The notes under the pieces: generated by a model
Seen by the model: only the letters and a program-made list of their open reading frames with translations
The model's database searches: none
Told to the model about the DNA's origin: nothing
Shown here: in pieces, positions 7,901-26,540 of the stretch
How the letters are laid out: every line of letters begins with the position of its first letter
Position numbering within the stretch: the stretch's first letter is position 1
Origin: Xylophilus sp. GW821-FHT01B05
Lineage (GTDB): Bacteria; Pseudomonadota; Gammaproteobacteria; Burkholderiales; Burkholderiaceae_C
Assembly (NCBI GenBank): GCA_038961845.1
Contig: CP152408.1
Coordinates: forward strand, 4,464,001 to 4,528,000
Direction: 5' to 3'
Length of the DNA stretch: 64,000 bases
Translations under genes and position numbers: made by a program

Positions 7901-9064
7901 TCAGGCCAATGTGAAGAGTGAGTGCTCATGGCCAGCCTCAGCCTCGGCCAGAGCTCGGCCGGGCGCAGGATCGGGGGCATCCTGGTCCTGACCATTGCGC
8001 TGCCGCCCAGCGGATTCGCGTTCGCTGCCATGAGAAACAAGCACCGACACATCGCTGAACTGACGTTGCCCGAGTTCCTGCCGCAGGCCATCACTCATTT
8101 GCTGGAGCTGTCGGACTACTTCGCTGTGCGAGGCATGGAGCTGGACCTGAAGCACGCCCGCTTCGTGTCGGATGACGATCTCCAAGCGCCCCATCATGGG
8201 AGGATCCAATCGAATCACCGCCCGCTCGCTGCCTTGTGCAATCTGTACCTTGATCCGTTCACCCAGGGCCTGCATCAAAGCCGGCTGCCGGGCGGCAAGC
8301 TCTGCCGGAGCCGCCTCCTTGGCGCGGAGGCCAGCCTCTGGCGCCAGCGGAGAGGCCGAAGCCTGCAACTCCACAGATACCGTCACCGCCGAGCGGCTAC
8401 CGTCCGCCATCGACGCCGAGGTGCGGGTCTCCCGGGAGGGCTGCTCGCGCAAGGACGGCAGCGTGCCCGTCTGGGACAAGGTTTCGACCTGGCGCTCCTT
8501 TCCACGGCGCGGGCTCTGGGCTTCCTGCAGCGGCGAAGCTTGTGCGAATGTCACGTCCGCAGACGGTGTTGACGATGACTCCGCGAAGAGCCCTGGCATC
8601 CTCTGCGTAGGCTCAGCCGGGAGCATTGCAACCGACGCTGCCCCCTGCGAGACGAGCAATGGCGTGATGGCCGATTGCGCACCATTGCCCCCACGGGCAA
8701 TCCCGCCCGCCCATGCCGGTTCAGGCGACACAGCGGCCACCTGCCCCGCTTCGCGCCACCACACCGACTGCATCGCGGCGAAGGCCTCCATCGCAGGCGC
8801 CGCCTGCATGCCTTGGAGCTCAGCGCCGCTCGCGTCCGAAGCATCCTCGTGGACACTCCCTTCCCCCTCTGTCATCGACACCTCAGTCAATGACAGCACA
8901 TCCTGTGGATTCCCCTGCGCCGCACGCATGGCGTCCATGAAGAGCGGAGCCGATCCATCCCCCCGTAGCGTCGTGCCAGAAGCTATCGGGAATACCTCAT
9001 CCTCGACAGGCATTGCCGATGTAGCAGTCGGAGCGGCCTGCGGAGCCATGGAAAAAGCTGTCAT
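7901..9064 (-). CDS. fliK: Flagellar hook-length control protein FliK (LafE-like)
   Basis: This exported molecular ruler sets hook length and switches export specificity. The 387-residue protein has a long Ala/Ser/Glu-rich, low-complexity N-terminal and middle part. It ends in the conserved Flg_hook domain at about 265-345: LGERIKVQIAQGSERAVIRL, DPPMMGRLEIVIRHEAG, VVRQLQQMSDGLRQELGQ. An AAAGG motif precedes the ATG. The start codon overlaps the stop of a 34-codon mini-ORF that links it to fliT. Confidence 0.9.
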   Translation of the reverse strand: MTAFSMAPQAAPTATSAMPVEDEVFPIASGTTLRGDGSAPLFMDAMRAAQGNPQDVLSLTEVSMTEGEGSVHEDASDASGAELQGMQAAPAMEAFAAMQSVWWREAGQVAAVSPEPAWAGGIARGGNGAQSAITPLLVSQGAASVAMLPAEPTQRMPGLFAESSSTPSADVTFAQASPLQEAQSPRRGKERQVETLSQTGTLPSLREQPSRETRTSASMADGSRSAVTVSVELQASASPLAPEAGLRAKEAAPAELAARQPALMQALGERIKVQIAQGSERAVIRLDPPMMGRLEIVIRHEAGVLQVQLHASHSEVVRQLQQMSDGLRQELGQRQFSDVSVLVSHGSERESAGRQRNGQDQDAPDPAPGRALAEAEAGHEHSLFTLA

Positions 9065-11404: not shown

Positions 11405-11839
11405 TCATGTACGCCCCCTCCACCACATCTGGGACGCCAGCTCGTCATCTCGCTTTTGCTGCTGCACAGTCTGGGCGCGTGCGGCGTCCTGATGGCGCTG
11501 CTCCAGCACTTGGCCCAACACCTTCTTGTGCCGAGCGGCCACGATCAGCGCCTGCTGAGCAACAGCCATGTCCGCCTCGTGCAAGTCCAGGTCCTGCCGG
11601 TGAGCGTTCACTATCTGGAGCATGGCCTGCTTGTAGTCGGCGCAGTTGCCCGACTGGGCTAGCGGCAGGCTGCCGCTGGCGCCGCTGTCGCGCGCCAGGT
11701 GCTCCATGCGCTCTATGTTGCTGCGATAGCGCACGCGTATGGCCTGCTTTCCGGCCATATCGGCCGTCAGGCGATCAAGCTCGCGCCCACGCAGATCGAC
11801 CAGCCGCCCGAGGCTGCGCAGCTTGTCCTGCTCGGTCAT
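11405..11839 (-). CDS. fliJ: Flagellar export protein FliJ
   Basis: This is a coiled-coil component of the flagellar export apparatus that couples FliI to FlhA. The 144 residues are almost entirely helical (LGRLVDLRGRELDRLTADMA, YRSNIERMEHLARDSG, ADMAVAQQALIVAARHKKVL) with a basic C-terminus. The gene overlaps fliI by 4 bases (ATGA) and is the last gene of the fliEFGHIJ block. Confidence 0.83.
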   Translation of the reverse strand: MTEQDKLRSLGRLVDLRGRELDRLTADMAGKQAIRVRYRSNIERMEHLARDSGASGSLPLAQSGNCADYKQAMLQIVNAHRQDLDLHEADMAVAQQALIVAARHKKVLGQVLEQRHQDAARAQTVQQQKRDDELASQMWWRGRT

Positions 11840-13164
11840 GCTGGCACTCCTTCTGCTGCAATCAATGCTTGGAGCTGCGCCACTGTGGCTTCCAGCGGTG
11901 CCGCCTCGCGCACGCCCTGGTGCAAGAAGGCCTCGATCCGAGGGTATAGCTTGACCGCACGATCCGTGGCCGGATCAGTCCCCGGCACATAGGCGCCCAA
12001 CGGCAGCAGATCGCGCACCTGGGCATAACGCGCGGCCAGCGCCCTCAATTCCCTGGCGGCACGCTGGTGCGCCAGGTCAACCACCTGGGCCATGCAGCGA
12101 CTCACCGAGGCGGCAATGTCAATGGCAGGATAGTGCCCACGCTCGGCCAGCGCCCGTGACATCACGATATGGCCATCCAGGATGGCTCGCGCCGTGTCCA
12201 CCACCGGGTCCTGCTGGTCGTCGCCCTCTGCCAGCACCGTATAGATGGCGCTCATGCTGCCCTGGGGGTTCTCGCCGTTGCCCGCACCTTCCACCAACTG
12301 CGGCAGCAGGCTGAACACAGACGGCGGGTAGCCGCGCGTCGCAGGCGGCTCGCCCAATGCCAGGGCCACCTCCCGGCGGGCCATGGCATAGCGCGTGAGC
12401 GAATCCACCAGCAGCAGCACATGCTGCCCCTGGTCACGGTAATGCGCAGCGATGGCATGGCACAACTCGGTGGCGCGCAGGCGCATGAGCGGCGATTCAT
12501 CGGCAGGGGCAATCACCACAACAGCCCGACGCAGGCCCTCAGCCCCCAACGACATGTCGATAAACTCTCGCACCTCACGGCTGCGCTCGCCAATCAGGCC
12601 AACCACCACCACATCAGCTACGGTCTGGCGCGTGATCAGCCCCAGCAGCACGCTTTTCCCTACCCCACTGCCGGCCATCAGCCCGACACGCTGACCGCGG
12701 CCCAGGGTCAGCAAGCCATTGATGGCGCGTACGCCGACGTCCAGCGGGTCGCCTACCGGCTGCTTGCGCAAAGGGTCCACACGCGGTGGATGAACGTCCA
12801 GCACATGCTCGCCCGTCAGGCGGCCCAGGCCATCGACTGGCTCACCCAACCCATTCACCACTCGCCCCAGCCAGGCGGGACCGATACGCAGGTCGCCACG
12901 CGCATGCAGGGGCAGCACCCGGGCACCGGTGGACAAGCCATCAGGCTTCTTGAGCGGCATGAGGAAGGAGACTTCTTCACGAAAGCCCACAACCTGCGCG
13001 TCGATCCAGGCGCCGGACGCCGTCTCTATGCTGCAGCGCTGGCCGGTGTGGAGCGGGCAGCCAACGCTTTCCAGCAACAGGCCCGATGCCCCCACCAGAC
13101 GCCCGGTCGGTGTGGCCACCGGTACTGCGGTGACTTCCAGCTTGCGGATGGCTGACCCAATCAC
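11836..13164 (-). CDS. fliI: Flagellum-specific ATPase FliI
   Basis: This is the hexameric ATPase of the flagellar type III export apparatus, related to F1-beta. The 442-residue product has Walker A GSGVGKS at 165-171, Walker B HVLLLVD at about 248-254 and the family sequence GRSREVREF-like stretch GERSREVREFIDMSLG. The region ATRGYPPSVFSLLPQLVEGA is also present. The start is a GTG overlapping the fliH stop by four bases (GTGA), the same arrangement as flgM-flgN. Confidence 0.97.
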   Translation of the reverse strand: MIGSAIRKLEVTAVPVATPTGRLVGASGLLLESVGCPLHTGQRCSIETASGAWIDAQVVGFREEVSFLMPLKKPDGLSTGARVLPLHARGDLRIGPAWLGRVVNGLGEPVDGLGRLTGEHVLDVHPPRVDPLRKQPVGDPLDVGVRAINGLLTLGRGQRVGLMAGSGVGKSVLLGLITRQTVADVVVVGLIGERSREVREFIDMSLGAEGLRRAVVVIAPADESPLMRLRATELCHAIAAHYRDQGQHVLLLVDSLTRYAMARREVALALGEPPATRGYPPSVFSLLPQLVEGAGNGENPQGSMSAIYTVLAEGDDQQDPVVDTARAILDGHIVMSRALAERGHYPAIDIAASVSRCMAQVVDLAHQRAARELRALAARYAQVRDLLPLGAYVPGTDPATDRAVKLYPRIEAFLHQGVREAAPLEATVAQLQALIAAEGVPA

Positions 13165-13952
13165 GGTGAGTTCTCCACGAACTCAGTAGCGCCAGCACTG
13201 GCCACCGTTCGGCGTGCACGCGGCTTCTTCGCGGCCACGGCCCTGGGAGGCATTACGGCTGACACGTCCTGCACGTCGAGTGCATCAACGGCCTTGTGCC
13301 CAGGCTCCAGCAATTGGGCACTGATCTGCCCCATGCAGGCCGCCAATCGCTGACTGCAGCCAGCGTCGGCCTCCTGGTGCCCGGCCTTGATCCGGCATTC
13401 GCCCGACTCCAGACGCGGATCATCTATCAGCGTCCAATCCTGGAGGCGATCGGGCGCAAGCTCCCGTATGCGCTGCAGGTCCCCCGGATTCAGAAAGACC
13501 TCGACGCCTTTCGGGGCTGGCGGCATCGTGGCCAACGTCTCATCCACGAGCGCCAACATCTGCACCGGCTGCAGGGCCAACTCGCAGCGTATGACCTGGC
13601 GTGCCACCTTGGCCACGAGGTCGATGACCTCCTTGCGCACTACGGTCTGGTATTCATCCTGCTGTGCCCGCAAGCCTGCCAGCACGGCGTCTATGGGCGC
13701 AGACAGGCGATCAAAGGCGGCGCGTGCCTCGACGTAGCCTTGCTGCACTCCTTGCCTCAAGCCTTCCCGATGACCCTCCGCATGACCGACTTCGCGCGCG
13801 ACCTGCAGGCCGCTGGCATGGCCTTCCTGATAACCACGCTCCATACCTTTCTGGAAGCCCTCGACTTGCGACGTGCCCACGCCGCCCGGCTGAATCGTCT
13901 GGGACACCTGCTCCAGCGGTGGAAAGCGATGGGATCGCATAGGCAGCCTCAT
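13161..13952 (-). CDS. fliH: Flagellar assembly protein FliH
   Basis: FliH is the stator-like regulator of the FliI ATPase. The 263-residue product contains a run of GxxxG-type repeats at about 31-75 (GFQKGMERGYQEGHASGL, then GHAEGHREGLRQGVQQGY), a hallmark of FliH. A VATP-synt_E-like C-terminal part follows (VIDLVAKVARQVIRCELALQ, LESGECRIKAGHQEADAG). It overlaps fliG by ATGA and fliI by GTGA, so the three are coupled. Confidence 0.92.
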   Translation of the reverse strand: MRLPMRSHRFPPLEQVSQTIQPGGVGTSQVEGFQKGMERGYQEGHASGLQVAREVGHAEGHREGLRQGVQQGYVEARAAFDRLSAPIDAVLAGLRAQQDEYQTVVRKEVIDLVAKVARQVIRCELALQPVQMLALVDETLATMPPAPKGVEVFLNPGDLQRIRELAPDRLQDWTLIDDPRLESGECRIKAGHQEADAGCSQRLAACMGQISAQLLEPGHKAVDALDVQDVSAVMPPRAVAAKKPRARRTVASAGATEFVENSP

Positions 13953-14980
13953 TCGACGACGGCCTCGGCAAACAGCTGGACTTCGATCTCACCGGCATCC
14001 ACCAGGGCCTTGACCTCGGCCATGATCTCTTCGCGCGCCTGCTCGATCCGGCTACGTGGCATCGGACCGGTACGGCGCAGGGAGTCTTCGAAAGCCTGCG
14101 CCTGACGGCGCGGCATCGCCTGCAGCACGGCATTGCGCACCGGTGGCTCAGCCCCCTTGAGCGCAATCGCCCACTGCTCCATTGGTACCTGCTCAAGAAG
14201 GCGCGTGATGACAGCTTCGGACTGGCGCGACAGGATGAAGAAGTCGTACATGCTGACTTCGATCTCGGACACCACCTTGGGATCGCGCGCACGCAACTGC
14301 TCCATCATCTGCTGGCGGTTGGCCGGCAAGCGGTTGAGGATCTCTGCGACCTGACGTACCCCTTCGACGCTGGTGCCCTGCAGCCCCAAGGTCTCCAGAC
14401 AGCGCTCCACCAGTTCATCAAGTTCCAGCAGCAGCTCGTGGTCCACCTCCTTCAACTGGGCCACGTGGTACACCAGCAAATCGCGCCCCTCGGTGGGCAA
14501 TGCATCCAGCAGAGCACTCGCCATGACCGGCGGCAGAAAAGCCATGAACACCGCCTGCATGCGCACATGTTCGTGGGCAATGCGCTCGGCCAACCACTTG
14601 GGCGATGCCCATTGAAGCCGAGCCATCTTGGGCCGGATCGCATCGCCATAGATGCTATTGAGCACGCGGTCGGCGATGTCGTTGCCAAGCGCCAAGTCCA
14701 GCGATTTCTTCAAGTAGGAACGAGACGCGCCATGCACGCCGCTCTGTTCGCGATAGTCATCGAAGAACTTCTGCAGTGCGGTCTTGACCGTCTCGACCTT
14801 GATGCCGCTCATGCGCGACATGACCTGGGTCACCTGCAACAGTTCTTCGCGTGACAGGCAGCGCAGCACTGCGGCCGCAGGCTCCTCACCCATGCTCAAC
14901 AGCACGATGGCCGCCTGCTCCAGCGAGGTCAATGCGCCGCCGTCGGACATGGCGATGTCGGAAGCGTTATCTTCAGGCAT
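13949..14980 (-). CDS. fliG: Flagellar motor switch protein FliG
   Basis: FliG is the rotor protein that contacts MotA and joins the MS ring to the C ring. The 343 residues include the N-terminal domain (LTSLEQAAIVLLSMGEEPAA), a middle domain ending in PPVMASALLDALPTEGRDLL and the LPANRQQMMEQLRARDP segment. The C-terminal torque domain has AIALKGAEPPVRNAVLQAMP. It overlaps fliF by 8 bases and fliH by 4. Confidence 0.96.
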   Translation of the reverse strand: MPEDNASDIAMSDGGALTSLEQAAIVLLSMGEEPAAAVLRCLSREELLQVTQVMSRMSGIKVETVKTALQKFFDDYREQSGVHGASRSYLKKSLDLALGNDIADRVLNSIYGDAIRPKMARLQWASPKWLAERIAHEHVRMQAVFMAFLPPVMASALLDALPTEGRDLLVYHVAQLKEVDHELLLELDELVERCLETLGLQGTSVEGVRQVAEILNRLPANRQQMMEQLRARDPKVVSEIEVSMYDFFILSRQSEAVITRLLEQVPMEQWAIALKGAEPPVRNAVLQAMPRRQAQAFEDSLRRTGPMPRSRIEQAREEIMAEVKALVDAGEIEVQLFAEAVVE

Positions 14981-16646
14981 TTTTTTGCACCCACTGTTTG
15001 ACCACCTCGGCCACGCGCTCGGACTCCTTGATGGACAGCACGCGCAAGTGCTCCACCATCACGTCAACCGGTGAGCCCGGTGGCGGCAAGTCATAGTTTT
15101 CGAGCAAGGGCACCACAGGCATTCCTGCTTGCCCACCAGCCGCGCCTCCCTGCAGGGCCAGGGCCGCCGCTGCCGACGGGGGCGCGCCTAATGCGGGCGT
15201 TGCATCCGACAGAGGCGGCACCAAGGACGCCTGCTGCGGAGCCCAGCGCTGCTGAGCCAGCCGCAGCAGTGGGCGCACCACCAGCAAGAAGACCAGCAGT
15301 AACGTGGCCGGATAGGCCAGCCATGAGGCAGCATCGGCTAGGTTGTCACGCTTCTGCCACCAGGGGAGTGACTCCACCATGGGAACAGAGGGGAAGGTCA
15401 GCGCAGATACCACCAGGCTGTCGCCGCGTGCCGCTGTGATGCCAACGCCGCCACGCAGCAGGCTTTCGATGTTGGCGATCTGCTCGGTACTCCATGCGCC
15501 ATCAGCAGGTGCCGCCGCGTTGTTGAGCACCACAGCCACGCTGAGTTTGCTTAGCCGTCCGCGGCTGCGCTTGGTCTGCGTGACGGTGCGGTCGTAGGCG
15601 TACTGACGCGTGTTCGCGGTCTTTTGCGCCGTATTGGCCTCTGGCGGCGTTGCCCCGGCACCTGGCGGATTCGCCACCGGCACATTGACCGGCCGATTGC
15701 TCAGCGAGCCTGGCACGCCCAAGGCAATCTGGTCACGCGCCATCTCCTCGCGTGTCGCCTCATTGGTCACCCGAGGTGCATCGCCATACTGCTCCCGCGT
15801 TTCCTGGATGCGGTCGTTGTCCACATTGGCGGTGACACTGACCTTGTAGTTACCCTCACCCAGCACCGGCGACAGCAGGTCGCGCACACTCTGACGCGCC
15901 TGCTCCTCGTAGCGGCGACCGGCTTCGGCTCCCTGACCTGCCTCAAAGCCATCGCTCAGATCGACCCGGGCGGACAACAAGTGGCCGGCTTGGTCCACAA
16001 CGCTAACGCGCTGCGGATCCATGCTGGCCACGCTGCCTGCCACCATGTTGATAACGGCGGCGATCTGTTCCGCTTCCAAAGTGCGGCCCGGCTTGAGCGC
16101 AATCACCACAGACGCAGAGCTCTTCTCTCCGTCGGTAGTTACAAAAGACGAGGAGCGTGCGATAGATAGATGTACCCGCGCCGTCTCCACGGCATTGAGC
16201 GCCATGATGCTCTGCGCCAATTCGCCCTCGAGGCCTCGGCGAAAGCGTACGTCCTGCACGAACTGGCTCACGCCCAGCGGATCGTTACGGTCCATGAGCT
16301 CCAGGCCCGCCGGTGGCCGGGCGATCACGCCTTTCGATGCCAGCAACATGCGGGTCTTGCCCAATGCCGACTCAGGCACCAGCACCTGGCCACTGTCAGG
16401 GTGCAGTCGATATGGAATTCCCTCGGCATCCAGTACCGCCATCATGTCGGCCGCGACGACCTTCTCTCGAGCGCCGAAGAGAGGCTTATAGGCCGCTTGA
16501 TCACGCCAAAGATAGGCCAGGGCCAGCGCGGTCAACGCAACGGCCAGCACCAATACCGGAGCCAGATCCTTGAGCCCGCCCGCCGGCAGGCGGGGCATGG
16601 CCGCAGCAGGGCGCAGGCGCGCCAGAACGGAATTGAGCACTCCCAT
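14973..16646 (-). CDS. fliF: Flagellar MS-ring protein FliF
   Basis: This inner-membrane protein forms the MS ring that nucleates the basal body. The 557-residue product has an N-terminal membrane segment (APVLVLAVALTALALAYLW) and the ring-building motif region SVVIALKPGRTLEAEQIAAV and VSVVDQAGHLLSARVDLSDG. The second membrane segment is SWLAYPATLLLVFLLVVRPL (about 440-462), followed by the FliG-binding tail IKESERVAEVVKQWVQKNA. It follows fliE by 24 bp. Confidence 0.97.
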   Translation of the reverse strand: MGVLNSVLARLRPAAAMPRLPAGGLKDLAPVLVLAVALTALALAYLWRDQAAYKPLFGAREKVVAADMMAVLDAEGIPYRLHPDSGQVLVPESALGKTRMLLASKGVIARPPAGLELMDRNDPLGVSQFVQDVRFRRGLEGELAQSIMALNAVETARVHLSIARSSSFVTTDGEKSSASVVIALKPGRTLEAEQIAAVINMVAGSVASMDPQRVSVVDQAGHLLSARVDLSDGFEAGQGAEAGRRYEEQARQSVRDLLSPVLGEGNYKVSVTANVDNDRIQETREQYGDAPRVTNEATREEMARDQIALGVPGSLSNRPVNVPVANPPGAGATPPEANTAQKTANTRQYAYDRTVTQTKRSRGRLSKLSVAVVLNNAAAPADGAWSTEQIANIESLLRGGVGITAARGDSLVVSALTFPSVPMVESLPWWQKRDNLADAASWLAYPATLLLVFLLVVRPLLRLAQQRWAPQQASLVPPLSDATPALGAPPSAAAALALQGGAAGGQAGMPVVPLLENYDLPPPGSPVDVMVEHLRVLSIKESERVAEVVKQWVQKNA

Positions 16647-16670: not shown

Positions 16671-17027
16671 CTAGACCTGCAACTTGATGAGTTCATCCAT
16701 CGCACCCACCACCTTGTTGCGGACCTGCATCAGCATAGAAAAGGACAGACTGGCCTCCTGACTGGCCAGCATGGCACCCACCAGGTCATCACTGCGCCCG
16801 CCATCCACATCCGCAATGCGGTCGCTTGCCATGCGCTCTTTGGCATCCACCCCTCGGACAGCCGCCTGCATGCTGGCCAGGAACCCGCCCTCGACACCGC
16901 GCGGCCATTGCCCATCCATGGCCGGCAACACGGGTGCGGCATACATGGCAGTAATGGATGAGGCACTGGCCTCCATGCGCATGACTGACGCATTTATGGA
17001 CGCTGCCATTGAGTTTTCGTTTTCCAT
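16671..17027 (-). CDS. fliE: Flagellar hook-basal body complex protein FliE
   Basis: FliE links the MS ring to the rod and is the first gene of the fliEFGHIJ block. The 118 residues end in the FliE C-terminal helix pair LVGAMLASQEASLSFSMLMQ / VRNKVVGAMDELIKLQV. The ATG at 17027 follows an AGGGGG Shine-Dalgarno. The predicted transcript begins about 495 bases upstream and carries a cyclic-di-GMP-I riboswitch aptamer at its 5' end, so expression of the whole export/rotor block is probably under second-messenger control. Confidence 0.94.
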   Translation of the reverse strand: MENENSMAASINASVMRMEASASSITAMYAAPVLPAMDGQWPRGVEGGFLASMQAAVRGVDAKERMASDRIADVDGGRSDDLVGAMLASQEASLSFSMLMQVRNKVVGAMDELIKLQV

Positions 17028-17096: not shown

Positions 17097-17234
17097 TCAA
17101 TACGCAATGAAATCACGCGCAGAAACGCAATCGCCGATTATAAAAATCAGCAACTCAATATGAAATGGGATTTGATTTGTCTCTAGACGATAGTCATCCT
17201 GCACTTCAGAAGCACAACCGCGACTCATCGCCAT
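17097..17234 (-). CDS. Weak candidate 45-codon ORF in the fliE leader
   Basis: A 45-codon frame starting at ATG 17234 (or 17228) lies in the fliE mRNA leader, downstream of the riboswitch. It begins MAMSRGCASEV and ends with a hydrophobic stretch FHIELLIFIIGD then CVSARDFIAY. There is no good Shine-Dalgarno and I recognise no family. It could be chance. It is listed only because it would be the one ORF between aptamer and fliE that a leader-type mechanism could use. Confidence 0.12.
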   Translation of the reverse strand: MAMSRGCASEVQDDYRLETNQIPFHIELLIFIIGDCVSARDFIAY

Positions 17235-17435
17235 CAAAAACCAGCACACCCGCACGCAAAGCACGGATTAGAAAATCACTAACAAGGAGACATAAGAAGG
17301 ACCTTACAGACAAGCAACGACCGGCACACAGAGGCCAACCGCGCTTAGACAGGGTCGCTTTCGCCACACGAGCGAAATGAGAACGAACGAGCAGCCACCG
17401 ATCCGCGTCGGCGCTACACCAGCCTTGAAAAGGCG

Positions 17436-17520
17436 CCCATCCTGCAGCCCCGCTATCGTAGTCAGATGACTTTAGACCGGAGGCTTTGCGACCCCGGCTT
17501 TCGCGCGGGTGTGCCCTTGT
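17436..17520 (-). promoter_or_regulatory. Cyclic-di-GMP-I (GEMM-I) riboswitch upstream of fliE operon
   Basis: Read on the minus strand, this segment reproduces the GEMM-I core in order. It has AAGGGCACACC (17518-17508), a P1b hairpin capped by GAAA (17502-17499) with a CCCG/CGGG stem, then CGCAAAGCC (17490-17482), CCGGTCTAAA, a small AGTC-ATCT-GACT hairpin, and GATAGCGGGGCTGC (17457-17444). This is very close to the Vibrio Vc2 aptamer (GGGCAAACC, GAAA, GACGCAAAGCC, TCCGGCCTAAA, GGTAGCGGGG). It begins within a few bases of the predicted transcription start and lies about 410 bases ahead of the fliE start codon. No classical terminator was found just downstream, so the expression platform is unresolved. 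Confidence 0.88.
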
Positions 17521-17527
17521 TTACTCG

Positions 17528-17546
17528 AAGATACACCGTGTATCTT
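17528..17546. repeat. Perfect 19-bp palindrome, candidate operator
   Basis: The sequence AAGATACACCGTGTATCTT is a perfect inverted repeat (9-base arms around one central base). It covers the -10 box and most of the spacer of the fliE promoter. Because it is symmetric, the right arm also provides a plus-strand TATCTT (17541-17546), with TTGTTT (17517-17522) 18 bases upstream, a possible promoter for fliM. A dimeric repressor bound here would block both directions. No regulator gene for it is in the window. Confidence 0.65.
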
Positions 17547-17556
17547 TGTGCGTCAA
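17528..17556 (-). promoter_or_regulatory. Sigma-70-type promoter for the fliE operon
   Basis: On the minus strand a -35 TTGACG (17556-17551) is followed by a 17-base spacer and a -10 TATCTT (17533-17528). This is a near-consensus housekeeping promoter rather than the sigma-54 type expected for LafK-dependent genes. An AT-tract at about 17570-17583 sits where an UP element would be. The predicted start at about 17521 puts the riboswitch at the very 5' end of the RNA. Confidence 0.72.
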
Positions 17557-22172: not shown

Positions 22173-24260
22173 ATGGCCTACCTCACCCGACTGCTCGCCG
22201 AACTCCGGCGCCACCGTTTCGCCACCCCGCTGTTCGTGCTGGCGATTCTGGCGATGATCATCCTGCCGCTGCCACCTGCGGTGCTGGACATTCTGTTCAC
22301 CTTCAACATCGTGCTGGCGCTGATCGTGATCCTGGTCAGCGTCAACAGCCGCAGGCCGTTGGACTTCTCGGTGTTCCCGATCGTGATCCTGGCCACCACG
22401 CTGATGCGGCTCACACTCAACGTAGCCTCGACGCGCGTAGTGCTGCTGCACGGCCACGAGGGCACGCATGCGGCGGGCCGGGTGATCGAGGCCTTTGGCA
22501 ATGTGGTGATAGGCGGCAACTTCGTGGTCGGCCTGGTGGTGTTCGTGATCCTGATGATCATCAACTTCGTCGTGGTGACCAAGGGCGCAGAGCGCATATC
22601 GGAAGTGTCGGCGCGCTTCACGCTGGACGCGCTGCCGGGCAAGCAGATGGCCATCGACGCCGACCTCAACGCCGGCCTTATCAACCAGGAGAAGGCACAG
22701 GCGCGGCGCCATGAGGTGGCGTCCGAGGCCGACTTCTATGGCGCGATGGATGGCGCCTCGAAGTTCGTGCGCGGCGACGCCATTGCCAGCATCCTGATCC
22801 TGATCGTCAACCTCGTGGGCGGCGTGGCCATCGGCGCGCTGATGCACGACCTGTCCTTTGGCGACGCATTCCGCCAGTACGCGCTGCTGACCATAGGCGA
22901 CGGCTTGGTCGCGCAGATCCCGGCCCTGCTGCTGTCCGCGGCGGCAGCCATCATCGTCACCCGCATCAGTGATTCAGGCCAGTTCGAGCAACAGGTGGGC
23001 TCGCAACTGCTGGCCTCGCCCACCGTGCTCTACGGCGCCGCCGGCTTGATGCTGGCACTGGGGCTAATCCCCGGCATGCCCTGGCCGACTTTCCTGTGCT
23101 TTGCCGGCGCTCTGGGCTATGTGGCCTGGCGCATGGGCCAGCACCTCAAGCGCCCGGCCGAGGCCGATACGGCTGCCGTCGAAGCCGCCCTCCTGGCCGC
23201 CCCGCCGCCCGACCTGGACTGGCGCAGCCTGCCTTTCGTGGAGCAGGTCACGGTCACGGTGGGCTACAAACTGGCCAGCTTGCTCGATACAGCACATGGC
23301 GCGCCACTGGCCAAGCGGCTCAAGGGCATAAGACAGAACCTGAGCGAGGCCATGGGCCTGCTGTTGCCACCGATCGGGCTGCGCGATGACCTTGCCCTCA
23401 AGCCGTCCCAGTACGCCGTGCTGCTAGGGGGCGCTGCCATTGCCCGGGGCGAGGTGTTCCAGGATCGGCTCATGGCCATTCCCTCGCCCAACGTCTATGG
23501 CCAGTTGGACGGCATCCCCGGCACGGAACCCGCCTATGCGCTGCCAGTGACCTGGATCGAGGCCGAGCACAAGGCCCATGCACTGGGCCTGGGCTACCAG
23601 GTGGTGGATGGGCCGAGCGTGATCGCCACCCATCTCTTCAAGCTGCTCCAGGATCACCTGTCAGAGCTGATACGGCACGAAGATGTTCCGGCACTCCTTG
23701 AGCGACTCGCAGCGCAGGCGCCCAAACTCTCGGCCGCGCTGGAGAAGGCGTTGACCCATAGCCAACTGCTCAAGGTGTTCCGCGTGCTGCTGGCCGAACT
23801 GGTACCGCTGCGCGACATCGTCCCCATTGCCACCACCTTGCTGGAGGCCTCGGAAACCACCAAGGACCCGATCCTGCTCGCGGCCGAAGTGCGCTGCACG
23901 CTGCGCCGGCAGATCGTCGCCGGCCTGTTCGGGCAGACCCAGGAGCTCAAGGCCTTCAACCTGAGCGGCGATCTGGAGAACCTGCTGCTTGGTGCGCTCA
24001 ACCAGGCGCGCCAGACCGGCAAGGTGGCCCTGGACAACTACCCCATCGACCCTCACCTGCTGGCGCAGATGCAGCTCAACATGCCCGCCGCGCGCACCCA
24101 GATGAAGCAACAGGGCGCCGTGCCGCTGCTGCTGGTGATGCCACAGATCCGCCCCCTGCTGGCCCGCTATGCCCGGCTGTTCGCACCAGGCCTGCACGTG
24201 CTCTCCTACAACGAGATACCGGAGCAGCGCGACATCAACATCGTGGGCTCACTCGGCTAG
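22173..24260 (+). CDS. flhA: Flagellar export protein FlhA
   Basis: This is the large inner-membrane component of the export gate. The 695 residues have an N-terminal half with seven to eight membrane helices (FVLAILAMIILPLPPAVLDI, FTFNIVLALIVILVSVNSRR). The FHIPEP-type signature region runs from FPIVILATTLMRLTLNVAST to LDALPGKQMAIDADLNAGLI. The large cytoplasmic domain ends NEIPEQRDINIVGSLG. It is last in the plus-strand block, and its stop interlocks with that of the convergent FliK-like gene. Confidence 0.97.
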   Translation: MAYLTRLLAELRRHRFATPLFVLAILAMIILPLPPAVLDILFTFNIVLALIVILVSVNSRRPLDFSVFPIVILATTLMRLTLNVASTRVVLLHGHEGTHAAGRVIEAFGNVVIGGNFVVGLVVFVILMIINFVVVTKGAERISEVSARFTLDALPGKQMAIDADLNAGLINQEKAQARRHEVASEADFYGAMDGASKFVRGDAIASILILIVNLVGGVAIGALMHDLSFGDAFRQYALLTIGDGLVAQIPALLLSAAAAIIVTRISDSGQFEQQVGSQLLASPTVLYGAAGLMLALGLIPGMPWPTFLCFAGALGYVAWRMGQHLKRPAEADTAAVEAALLAAPPPDLDWRSLPFVEQVTVTVGYKLASLLDTAHGAPLAKRLKGIRQNLSEAMGLLLPPIGLRDDLALKPSQYAVLLGGAAIARGEVFQDRLMAIPSPNVYGQLDGIPGTEPAYALPVTWIEAEHKAHALGLGYQVVDGPSVIATHLFKLLQDHLSELIRHEDVPALLERLAAQAPKLSAALEKALTHSQLLKVFRVLLAELVPLRDIVPIATTLLEASETTKDPILLAAEVRCTLRRQIVAGLFGQTQELKAFNLSGDLENLLLGALNQARQTGKVALDNYPIDPHLLAQMQLNMPAARTQMKQQGAVPLLLVMPQIRPLLARYARLFAPGLHVLSYNEIPEQRDINIVGSLG

Positions 24261-25291
24261 CGGGCCGCGTCCTCCTGCGGCCAGTGCAGCACCAGCAGAG
24301 TCACTGCCTCGGATGCTGCGCGGAACACGTCGGATGTCAGCGCCATGGCGTCACCCCACGGCGGTGGCCGCACGGCCCAGCCATAGGCGGCCCCGACCGG
24401 CCCGGCGGACAGCCGGCAGCGCACCAACCGCAAGCCCGCACGCGCCAGCGCAACCACCAATGGTGACAGCGCCTGGCGCAGCAGCGGCAAAGCGGCCTCA
24501 CTGTCCACGTGCAGCAGGAAGGCAATGGCACCCGGCGCTGGCGCATGCACCTGCATCAGCACATGCCCCAAACCGGCCAGCGACAGCTCCAGGCGTAGCA
24601 CCACCAGGCCCAGGCGGCGCCGGCCCGGCGACCGGACCCAGCGCAAGGCATCCTGACCATGGGCCTCGAAGACACGCACCATCAGCGGCAGCCCGCCCCA
24701 GGCATAGACAGGAAACAGCCACGGCTTTACCAAGGCGCTCCCCATGAGCTCCAGTGCTTCAGGCTGCGCGGCGGTCGCAATCGGCACAAGGCCGCCAGCC
24801 CCGGTACTCGCGGTGGATTCATTGGAGCGCGGCACCTGCAGGCTCTGCCCATGGCGGCGCAGCAATGCCTGCCAGGTCGCAGCCAGCATGGCCGTGTCGG
24901 GCTTGTGTAGCGCCAGGCTCTGCATGCCCGCCTGGTCCCAGCGCATGGCAGCAGGCTCCTGCTCGCCCGCAGGCGGCTTGGCAGGCGCGCCCCCGCTCGG
25001 GGCCTGGCTCAGCAGTTCCACCTCCATGCGCGGCTCGGCCTTGAGAATGCGCACCAGCAGCACATCGCCCGGCGACAACGAGCGGCTCCAGGCGCCCGCC
25101 CCTGACAGCCACAGCGACAGGCCTTGCGCGGTATCGGCCCGCAAGGCCTCGCCCACCGCCTCGGCATAGCGCAATTGCATCGTCTCGCCCGCCGCCGGCC
25201 AGGGGCGAGGCTGTTCGGACTGGCCGGACGTGCGCGCATAGACGGACACGGCGGTTCCCGCACCGATCGGCTTTGACTGTTCCACTGCCAT
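24257..25291 (-). CDS. FliK-like flagellar protein of uncertain role
   Basis: This 344-residue protein lies between flagellin and flhA. From ATG 25291 it starts MAVEQSKPIGAGTAVSVYAR. The N-terminal half has a module common in beta/gamma FliK proteins (GDVLLVRILKAEPRMEVELL). The C-terminal part RRLGLVVLRLELSLAGLGHV then LPLLRQALSPLVVALARAGL has the spacing of the Flg_hook domain of hook-length control proteins. The usual charged EAD-like contacts of FliK are replaced by hydrophobic residues, so function is uncertain. It is separated from the flagellin gene by a strong terminator, so it needs its own promoter or read-through. Confidence 0.55.
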   Translation of the reverse strand: MAVEQSKPIGAGTAVSVYARTSGQSEQPRPWPAAGETMQLRYAEAVGEALRADTAQGLSLWLSGAGAWSRSLSPGDVLLVRILKAEPRMEVELLSQAPSGGAPAKPPAGEQEPAAMRWDQAGMQSLALHKPDTAMLAATWQALLRRHGQSLQVPRSNESTASTGAGGLVPIATAAQPEALELMGSALVKPWLFPVYAWGGLPLMVRVFEAHGQDALRWVRSPGRRRLGLVVLRLELSLAGLGHVLMQVHAPAPGAIAFLLHVDSEAALPLLRQALSPLVVALARAGLRLVRCRLSAGPVGAAYGWAVRPPPWGDAMALTSDVFRAASEAVTLLVLHWPQEDAAR

Positions 25292-25349
25292 GAATGCGAA
25301 CCTTCTGCTTGAATGCCGCCTGCCGCACAGCCATGCACAGCACCACCTT

Positions 25350-25380
25350 GAAAAAAAGCCAACCGCGCGAACGGTTGGCT
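25350..25380 (-). terminator. Rho-independent terminator of the flagellin gene
   Basis: On the minus strand a perfect 9-bp stem (AGCCAACCG / CGGTTGGCT) with a six-base loop is followed by a run of seven T. It lies about 57 bp after the flagellin stop. A second GC-rich inverted repeat (GCGGTGCA / TGCACCGC, about 25388-25411) sits between the stop and this terminator. Confidence 0.93.
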
Positions 25381-25436
25381 CCTGGGGGCGGTGCACCTGC
25401 CTGCACCGCACTGGGACCGCCCAAGGCGGGCCGGAA

Positions 25437-26309
25437 TTACTGCAGCAGCGACAGCACCAGTTGCGACAGGCTGTTGGCCTGCTTGAGCGAAGACGTGCCT
25501 GCTTGCAACTGCAACTGCTTGGCGGTGGAGTTGGTCGCTTCAGCGGCGTAGTCCACGTCCATGATGCGGCCACGGGCAGCATCGGTGTTGGAGCTCATGT
25601 TGCCCAGGTTGTTGTAGACGTGCTCGAGGCGGTTGGCCGAAGCGCCAAATTCCGCACGCAGCGTACCGACAGCCTTGATCGCATCATTGATTGTCCCGAT
25701 GATGGCGTTGGTGCCGTTAAGCTCAGTACCAGCCGTACCGCCGTAGTCAGCACTGACTGCACCCAGTGCGGTAGCCAGGGCCGTCAGTGATGTACCGGTA
25801 TCCACGACCATCGTTTCGCCCGTGGACGCACCGATTTGGAAGGTCAGGGTGGCGCTGGAGAGCAGACCAGCACTACCGTCAGTCGTGGTCCCATTGCTGA
25901 ACAACTGCGTACCGCCAAAGGCGGTGTTTTTCATGATGTTGCCCAGTTCCTTGCCCAGCGCGCTGAACTCAGCCTGCAAGGCGGTGCGATCGTCTGCCGT
26001 GGCCGATGCCGTTGCCGACTCCGTAGCCAGATCCTTCATGCGCAGCAGGATGTTGTTGACTTCGTCCAAGCCACCATCGGCGACCTGCAGCATCGAGATG
26101 CCGTTTTGCGTGTTCTTCTGGGCCACGGCCATGCCGCGGCTTTGTGCCTGCAGGCGAGACGCGATCTGCAGGCCGGCGGCGTCGTCCTGCGACGAGTTGA
26201 TGCGGTAGCCAGTACCCAGGCGGGTGAGCGAGGTGTTCAGAGCCTTCTGGGTAGCGCCCACGGCGTTCTGGGTCGAGAGGGATGCGGCATTGGTGTGCAG
26301 GCTGAGCAT
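25437..26309 (-). CDS. fliC: Flagellin (lateral-type, LafA-like)
   Basis: This is the filament subunit. The 290 residues are short for flagellin. The conserved N-terminal D0/D1 (MLSLHTNAASLSTQNAVGAT, RLGTGYRINSSQDDAAGLQI) and C-terminal D1/D0 (FGASANRLEHVYNNLGNMSS, then SLKQANSLSQLVLSLLQ) flank a small variable centre of about 80 residues. An AGGAG lies 9 bases before the ATG. It is monocistronic, with a strong terminator. In lateral systems the homologue is lafA; the generic symbol is given because no comparison could be run. Confidence 0.95.
   Translation of the reverse strand: MLSLHTNAASLSTQNAVGATQKALNTSLTRLGTGYRINSSQDDAAGLQIASRLQAQSRGMAVAQKNTQNGISMLQVADGGLDEVNNILLRMKDLATESATASATADDRTALQAEFSALGKELGNIMKNTAFGGTQLFSNGTTTDGSAGLLSSATLTFQIGASTGETMVVDTGTSLTALATALGAVSADYGGTAGTELNGTNAIIGTINDAIKAVGTLRAEFGASANRLEHVYNNLGNMSSNTDAARGRIMDVDYAAEATNSTAKQLQLQAGTSSLKQANSLSQLVLSLLQ

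Positions 26310-26461: not shown

Positions 26462-26540
<79 letters not shown>

Follow-up and report, generated by a model that had tools for sequence, protein, structure and literature searches.

The window analysed here, a stretch of DNA of 64,000 nucleotides, contains an element that by the Rfam model is a class-I c-di-GMP aptamer (GEMM-I), located upstream of the first gene of a flagellar operon, fliEFGHIJ, in a genome that carries two flagellar gene sets. As predictions from sequence, the aptamer and its link to the second flagellum are solid. We further lean towards the view that a genuine class-I riboswitch opens the fliEFGHIJ RNA, and that c-di-GMP would thereby set the output of the genes for the MS-ring, rotor and export ATPase.

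The aptamer and the operon behind it

A cmscan search of the whole window placed a match to RF01051 (c-di-GMP-I) on the minus strand (Table 1), with a score of 70.3 bits (E 9.3e-12), about twice the gathering score of 35. The match is full length (model positions 1-87 of 87) with no non-standard pair flagged, and a search of the whole 5,832,500-base genome found this single copy. The first-pass annotation had proposed a GEMM-I riboswitch at 17436-17520 of the minus strand and had named an RF01051 search as its check; the clear match agrees with that span to within 5 nt, and the hallmarks on which the proposal was built, i.e., GGGCACACC, a GAAA loop, CGCAAAGCC, CCGGTCTAAA and GATAGCGGGGCTGC, are found in the minus-strand sequence. 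The candidate ligand-contact nucleotides (G20, the CAAAG run with A47, and C92) would correspond to GGGC, CGCAAAG and GGGGCUGC of the window aptamer, by a numbering that we assume to apply here and that is in part that of PMC7288161. The outer helix P1 is absent from Rfam's pair line, and in the window and its nearest relative, locus L135, the C92 equivalent is followed by A instead of C, by which the next outer pair is lost. At the place of window 17440-17445, these two aptamers read UGCAGG, and the other printed aptamers read UGCCAG or CGCC.

The start of fliE lies 412 nt downstream of the aptamer on the same strand, and fliEFGHIJ are tightly packed, with ends that overlap or nearly touch. 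With Pfam-confirmed fliE, fliF and fliG behind it, the aptamer heads this operon, as had been claimed. Pfam support in the cluster covers FliE, FliF, FliG, FliD, FliS, FliK, FliL, a FliA-like sigma factor, MotA and MotB. Genes fliM-N-P-Q-R-flhB-flhA are divergent, from 17842 (P-Q-R-flhB-flhA were named by match to the genome's other set), and lie, like the flg genes at 1-3.3 kb, outside the predicted aptamer-fliE transcript. The shut-off of the whole second flagellum put forward in the first-pass annotation is at this stage a hypothesis. A 441-amino acid frame beside fliC (24257-25582, minus strand) has a weak match to the FliK C-terminus (E 0.0022, under the cut-off), and a clear FliK is encoded apart from it at 7901-9064; the frame may represent an additional hook-length protein or some other gene of the flagellum.

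Table 1. Positions of the features discussed, in window coordinates
Feature	Position	Strand	Basis or remark
Promoter-like TTGACG-17-TATCTT	17528..17556	-	9/12 matches; first hexamer from 17556, second ends 17528
c-di-GMP-I (GEMM-I) aptamer	17440..17525	-	RF01051 match
Helix P4, 5' strand	17434..17443	-	Directly after aptamer 3' strand; 10-nt pairing with 17389-17380 in predicted folds
Helix P4, 3' strand	17380..17389	-	Covariation across clades
Hairpin after P4 (TTTCGC...GCGAAA)	17359..17377	-	Predicted fold
Shine-Dalgarno-like AAGG of tiny ORF	17302..17305	-	Sequence
Tiny ORF ATG TCT CCT TGT TAG (MSPC)	17279..17293	-	Start 146 nt after aptamer
Possible anti-aptamer	17243..17253	-	11-nt complement (one wobble) of 17515-17505; 1/200 shuffles; window only
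Second promoter-like TTCATA-16-TATAAT	17137..17164	-	10/12 matches; about 110 nt before fliE
fliE, first gene of operon	16671..17027	-	Pfam FliE, E 3.9e-15
fliF	14973..16646	-	Pfam
fliG	13949..14980	-	Pfam
fliH	13161..13952	-	ORF overlaps fliG stop; match to genome's other set; named by order
fliI	11836..13164	-	ORF overlaps fliH stop; 52% identical to genome's other set
fliJ	11405..11839	-	ORF overlaps fliI stop; named by order and size

The genome's other flagellar set is located near 5.15-5.19 Mb and has diverged from the window set (identity 33% for FliF, 30% for FliG and 48-49% for FlhA), which agrees with the earlier description of the window genes as a second flagellar system. No Rfam aptamer match occurred in the two stretches scanned of this primary set. 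The gene for FlhC, which could be the master regulator of one or the other set, lies some 123 kb away from the window (G000:C1:4341069-4341575). The host had been taken for a betaproteobacterium, and a piece of its 23S gene is indeed close to records of Comamonas (96.6% identical) and Variovorax (95.9%).

Within its genus, the window flagellar system looks foreign, since an RF01051 match was found in one of seven genomes (the window's own), and since FliE relatives in the six others are only 29-31% identical, with one genome having none. A tRNA gene (26462-26537, plus strand) adjoins the flagellar cluster, whose FliE type is absent from those six genomes; an acquired flagellar island could have integrated at this tRNA gene.

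Recurrence of the aptamer before the same genes

Among 200 genomes of the family, stricter filters gave 94 RF01051 matches in 58 genomes, with up to six in one (G075). All 94 were oriented, and by tblastn the window FliE type lies downstream of 14 of them, the window included. These 14 belong to one sequence class: fliE-linked aptamers make up 14 of 47 with GCACACC, none of 41 with GCAAACC and none of six others. Several GCAAACC-class aptamers precede ORFs that by eye resemble secreted lipoproteins (LLSACGGG-like starts).

An independent search found the window FliF type in 16 of the 200 family genomes, 14 of which are those with the aptamer before fliE; G069 and G175, of one genus, carry this FliF type without an aptamer (no match up to E 1). 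At least two FlhA genes are present in each of the 13 other aptamer-bearing genomes and in the two that lack the aptamer. Six further genomes of the order have the FliF type and are also without the aptamer.

The linkage extends to the nearest named FliE relatives. Among the best 80 of 432, RF01051 matches lie upstream of fliE in 13, which, counted in successive sets of 20, amount to 6, 5, 2 and 0. The 13 comprise a Steroidobacteraceae MAG, three SZAS MAGs, MAG B38T1B8, Aquabacterium, Pelomonas KK5, two Ideonella, Aquincola, two Azoarcus and Zoogloea, and thus span Zoogloeaceae, Sphaerotilaceae and the Steroidobacteraceae MAG. The other 67 of these 80 relatives, many of them from Oxalobacteraceae and Chromobacteriaceae, are without the aptamer. 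Two of the 13 repeat loci from the family genomes (L035, identical in sequence to L157, and L062, identical to L177) and were dropped as duplicates, leaving 25 distinct loci in total. In a FliF tree of 91 rows, the aptamer label requires 5 changes, against 22 for shuffled labels, a count that does not separate gain from loss; the tree was quick (LG+G4, SH-aLRT only, long branches flagged, the fragment L071 left out).

The choice between two flagellar systems has mostly been studied through protein regulators. The recurrence of the aptamer before the same genes suggests that this flagellum may be controlled directly at the RNA level. In 14 of the 16 family genomes that carry the second system, its RNA would contain a c-di-GMP sensor, which predicts an RNA-level separation of the two systems; since the aptamer is on the second set and none was found in the scanned stretches of the primary set of this genome, c-di-GMP should set them apart.

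The leader between aptamer and fliE

The flagellar GEMM-I coupling of the first-pass annotation stands, conserved as it is in those 14 genomes, and was proposed ahead of the findings on the leader and on terminators. The same account of the region was right about the aptamer and missed the 412-nt leader, a second structured domain, a tiny ORF and the absence of an intrinsic terminator. Its promoter before the aptamer holds in part: a promoter-like site is present, and the signal is raised in most homologous loci, but a 9/12 match is weak by itself. Covariation in the fliE leader, which it had suggested looking for, was found for one helix (P4, see below) across clades, with poor pairing in eight of ten members of one clade.

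From the promoter-like site upstream of the aptamer, RNA is predicted to start near 17521, a position that already falls within the 5' edge of the stretch matched by Rfam. Such sites number two in 901 bp, with 0.7 expected; the score of the upstream one was equalled in one of 200 shuffles. In each of the 25 loci, the highest sigma70-like score was taken from the 51 bases that end at the aptamer edge; these scores have a mean of 6.8, compared with 5.0 for shuffled sequences and 5.6 for the highest shuffled-set mean, and in 11 of the 25 at most 10 of 200 shuffles reached the score. Five of the 25 (L033, L042, L051, L067 and L159) have no promoter signal before the aptamer. The second promoter-like site, which six of 100 shuffles matched, could allow a bypass of the riboswitch; near fliE, sigma70-like promoters are not enriched over 24 loci (6.7 versus 6.9 shuffled), among which the window scores comparatively well.

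The leader from aptamer to fliE measures 352-688 nt in 24 loci and 148 nt in L031, with some fliE starts set by script. The stretch between the aptamer and about +145 is structured. It opens with helix P4, whose strands had lower energies with their own than with swapped partners across nine clades (permutation p median 0.00087, maximum 0.0025, 40 random draws; with hand-picked representatives, the observed sum was reached by 7 of 362,880 permutations), the columns having been chosen after inspection. Taken locus by locus, the own partner ranked first or second against swapped ones in 6 of 23 loci, and the window ranked 8 of 45. In a MAFFT alignment, 72.8% of P4 cells are paired, against 24-44% when the strands are slid; the support there is modest, as shuffles reached the observed covariation in 18 of 500 cases, the pair types in 6 of 500 and the percentage paired in 38 of 500. 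The best examples of P4 come from Ideonella, Azoarcus, Aquabacterium and MAG B38T1B8. In the L161-type clade, the eight poorly pairing members show a local covarying hairpin instead. Alignments inspected by eye place hairpins of differing sequence at about the post-P4 position in other leaders. The second structured domain, about 100 nt long, covaries in part.

Behind this domain comes the tiny ORF, which in the window ends 251 nt before the fliE start. A Shine-Dalgarno-like motif with an ATG at 108-180 nt after the aptamer, a range fixed after the leaders had been inspected, is present in 18 of 24 leaders by a strict test (AAGG, AGGA, GGAG or GAGG within the 11 bases from -15 to -5 of the ATG), compared with 1.5 expected from dinucleotide shuffles; six of the 24 failed it. 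Assigned starts fall 114-166 nt past the aptamer in 23 loci, with GTG in L140, alignment as the basis in L157, L163 and L169, and a weak Shine-Dalgarno motif in L165. L031, with its short leader, was left out of the ORF, second-promoter and anti-aptamer tests, and L177, with no start assigned, out of tests centred on the tiny ORF.

The predicted peptides range from 4 to more than 100 residues and differ in sequence, e.g., MSPC in the window, MHSSP in L135, MNCHILV in L033 and L067, and MKPPGYT in L063 and L068. The Zoogloea-type loci L033, L042, L051 and L067 keep the start, the stop and a length of eight codons including the stop, while residues change. Averaged over eight pairs of relatives, of which four come from a single group, identity is 0.89 in the aptamer, then 0.70-0.81 up to a point 30 nt beyond the tiny-ORF start, and 0.46-0.65 further on. 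The window/L135 pair deviates: its identity is 0.43 immediately behind the aptamer and 0.33-0.43 in the surroundings of the tiny ORF. The L041/L085 pair has its own identity peak further downstream.

Proposed switching mechanism and comparison with known systems

Intrinsic terminators were found in none of the 25 leaders (0.6 expected), and a looser scan of the window gave one weak site with 1.0 expected, which leaves translation or Rho as the read-out. No conserved pairing against the Shine-Dalgarno motif or the aptamer was found (mean -16.5 over 24 leaders, the same as in shuffled ones). Folding of bound and unbound forms left access to the tiny-ORF start unchanged; the helix forced in this comparison is not an Rfam pair (5' GC in the base of P2), and the result was discounted. 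The probability of P2 was 0.20 in natural leaders and 0.51 in shuffled ones; as the aptamer alone already gives 0.23, an unfolding of the aptamer by the leader is not indicated.

Several other devices were considered and rejected. RNAalifold, applied to ten L161-type leaders without the 5' half of the aptamer, paired the aptamer 3' strand with an invariant GUGACC, but the 24 leaders did no better than shuffles in a test for a conserved anti-aptamer of this kind. A GTTGTG-CC word that can pair with the aptamer 3' strand is invariant after the second hairpin in all ten L161-type leaders. The possible anti-aptamer of the window lies 39 nt past the tiny-ORF start; a conserved complement of the aptamer 5' strand was set aside with a median rank of 75 of 200 over 23 loci. 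An excess of C over G, as for a Rho site, occurs past the tiny-ORF start in 23 of 23 loci, but is unspecific, as 38 of 44 genes that follow other aptamers show it too; for fliE itself the count is 11 of 25. An invertible segment of the C. difficile type was dropped, there being no long flanking inverted repeat and short imperfect inverted pairs only.

As neither a terminator nor a conserved helix that sequesters the Shine-Dalgarno motif or opposes the aptamer was found, the simplest reading of a conserved start signal located more than 250 nt upstream of fliE is that the tiny ORF is translated and acts through polarity. Transcription would start just at the aptamer, if the promoter-like site is used. 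The aptamer would fold first and, judging by its family, may bind c-di-GMP, and the second structured domain, partly backed by covariation, would follow. The read-out would be at the start of the tiny ORF, about 145 nt downstream, whose presence is shown by comparison and whose role is putative. Its translation might then determine if RNA polymerase gets as far as fliE; the most likely means would be termination by Rho, or decay of the RNA, in the remainder of the leader, which is not translated. We propose only tentatively that promoter, GEMM-I aptamer, second domain and micro-ORF form a conserved relay module, through which c-di-GMP would act on micro-ORF translation and this in turn would admit polymerase to fliEFGHIJ, rather than by a terminator or the gene's own ribosome site. 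If true, the module would serve one type of second flagellum in Betaproteobacteria and some Gammaproteobacteria, and c-di-GMP would let the cell control the spare flagellum separately from the primary one at the RNA level. The leader with its second domain and micro-ORF is a new feature that lends itself to testing, its relay role being one that we infer.

That the riboswitch works without such a relay, the aptamer and second domain acting on transcription by pausing or Rho loading, is rather unlikely in our estimate. The tiny ORF would then be a by-product or the decayed remnant of a gene once under the aptamer, and the next gene does often lie at a similar distance behind the other 80 family aptamers, so the stub might be the start of such a gene; the variable length and sequence of the peptides and the missing conservation at the tiny ORF in the window/L135 pair fit this as well. 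It accounts poorly, however, for the finding that 18 of 24 leaders, drawn from several clades, carry their start signal at one and the same distance, where 1.5 would be expected, and for the four Zoogloea-type loci that keep start, stop and eight-codon length despite residue changes. More distant still is a riboswitch RNA that forms a separate short transcript (an sRNA or short mRNA), with fliE escaping the switch through its own promoter. The aptamer precedes fliE in 25 distinct loci with the leader in the same direction, none of the 25 leaders has a terminator-like site, and promoter-like sites near fliE are not enriched over 24 loci, all of which makes such a transcript improbable, even if the leader is long, the second promoter-like site has a consensus TATAAT, and class II genes of flagella can be driven from activator-dependent promoters, a kind beyond the promoter scan, FlhC being encoded here.

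We give very little credence to an aptamer that senses another cyclic dinucleotide, 3',3'-cGAMP, since GGC is retained ahead of ACACC in each of the 27 printed aptamers (25 distinct), with a G at what we presume to be the equivalent of G20. In its favour, RF01051 includes cGAMP-sensing members, with Geobacter examples, and a G20A mutant binds cGAMP, according to the available passages of PMC7288161.

For the relay through the micro-ORF as for any c-di-GMP switch at this site, a lowering of fliE-operon expression at high c-di-GMP is the likelier direction, with moderate confidence and by analogy with C. difficile flgB and the usual logic of c-di-GMP in motility. The parts of PMC6200980 available to us describe C. 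difficile class-I switches as acting OFF, and, with those of PMC5386303, the flgB switch (Cd1, or Cdi-1-3) as acting through premature termination, with a 160-nt RNA and expression OFF with c-di-GMP.

Among open-access titles and the openings of abstracts, a set to which the original GEMM paper, which may list such loci, does not belong, we found no c-di-GMP riboswitch described as preceding fliE or as part of a flagellar operon of a betaproteobacterium. The open-access literature, with most subscription journals outside it, likewise yielded none acting through a micro-ORF.

As far as the available passages describe it (PMC6200980, PMC5386303), Cd1 resembles the window element in its aptamer class, in being the first 5' UTR element of an early flagellar operon and in the long further leader before the first gene (338 nt in Cd1). 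Cd1 is of the terminator type, unlike the window-type leaders, where no terminator-like site was found (0/25), and its leader has an invertible segment between 21-bp repeats in place of the short imperfect inverted pairs seen here; it also belongs to a different phylum, whereas here the system is a second and not the only flagellar one, and the aptamer precedes fliE. Bc1 of Bacillus thuringiensis, from the abstract of PMC11218506, shares the class-I aptamer and an unusually long expression platform, but has two intrinsic terminators, of which none was found here.

The combination of a riboswitch with a short ORF before the gene is also known from the ppe2 and metE B12 riboswitches of M. tuberculosis, with translated uORFs, as described in the available parts of PMC11260477. 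Ligand and aptamer differ there, and the tiny ORF here is a predicted one. Termination-reinitiation is the mode of action of the ppe2 uORF, which overlaps its gene, and PPE2 expression requires uORF translation (PMC11260477). The window's tiny ORF, by contrast, stops well short of fliE. If the tiny ORF is the read-out here, the fliE leader would represent a c-di-GMP riboswitch that works via a micro-ORF.
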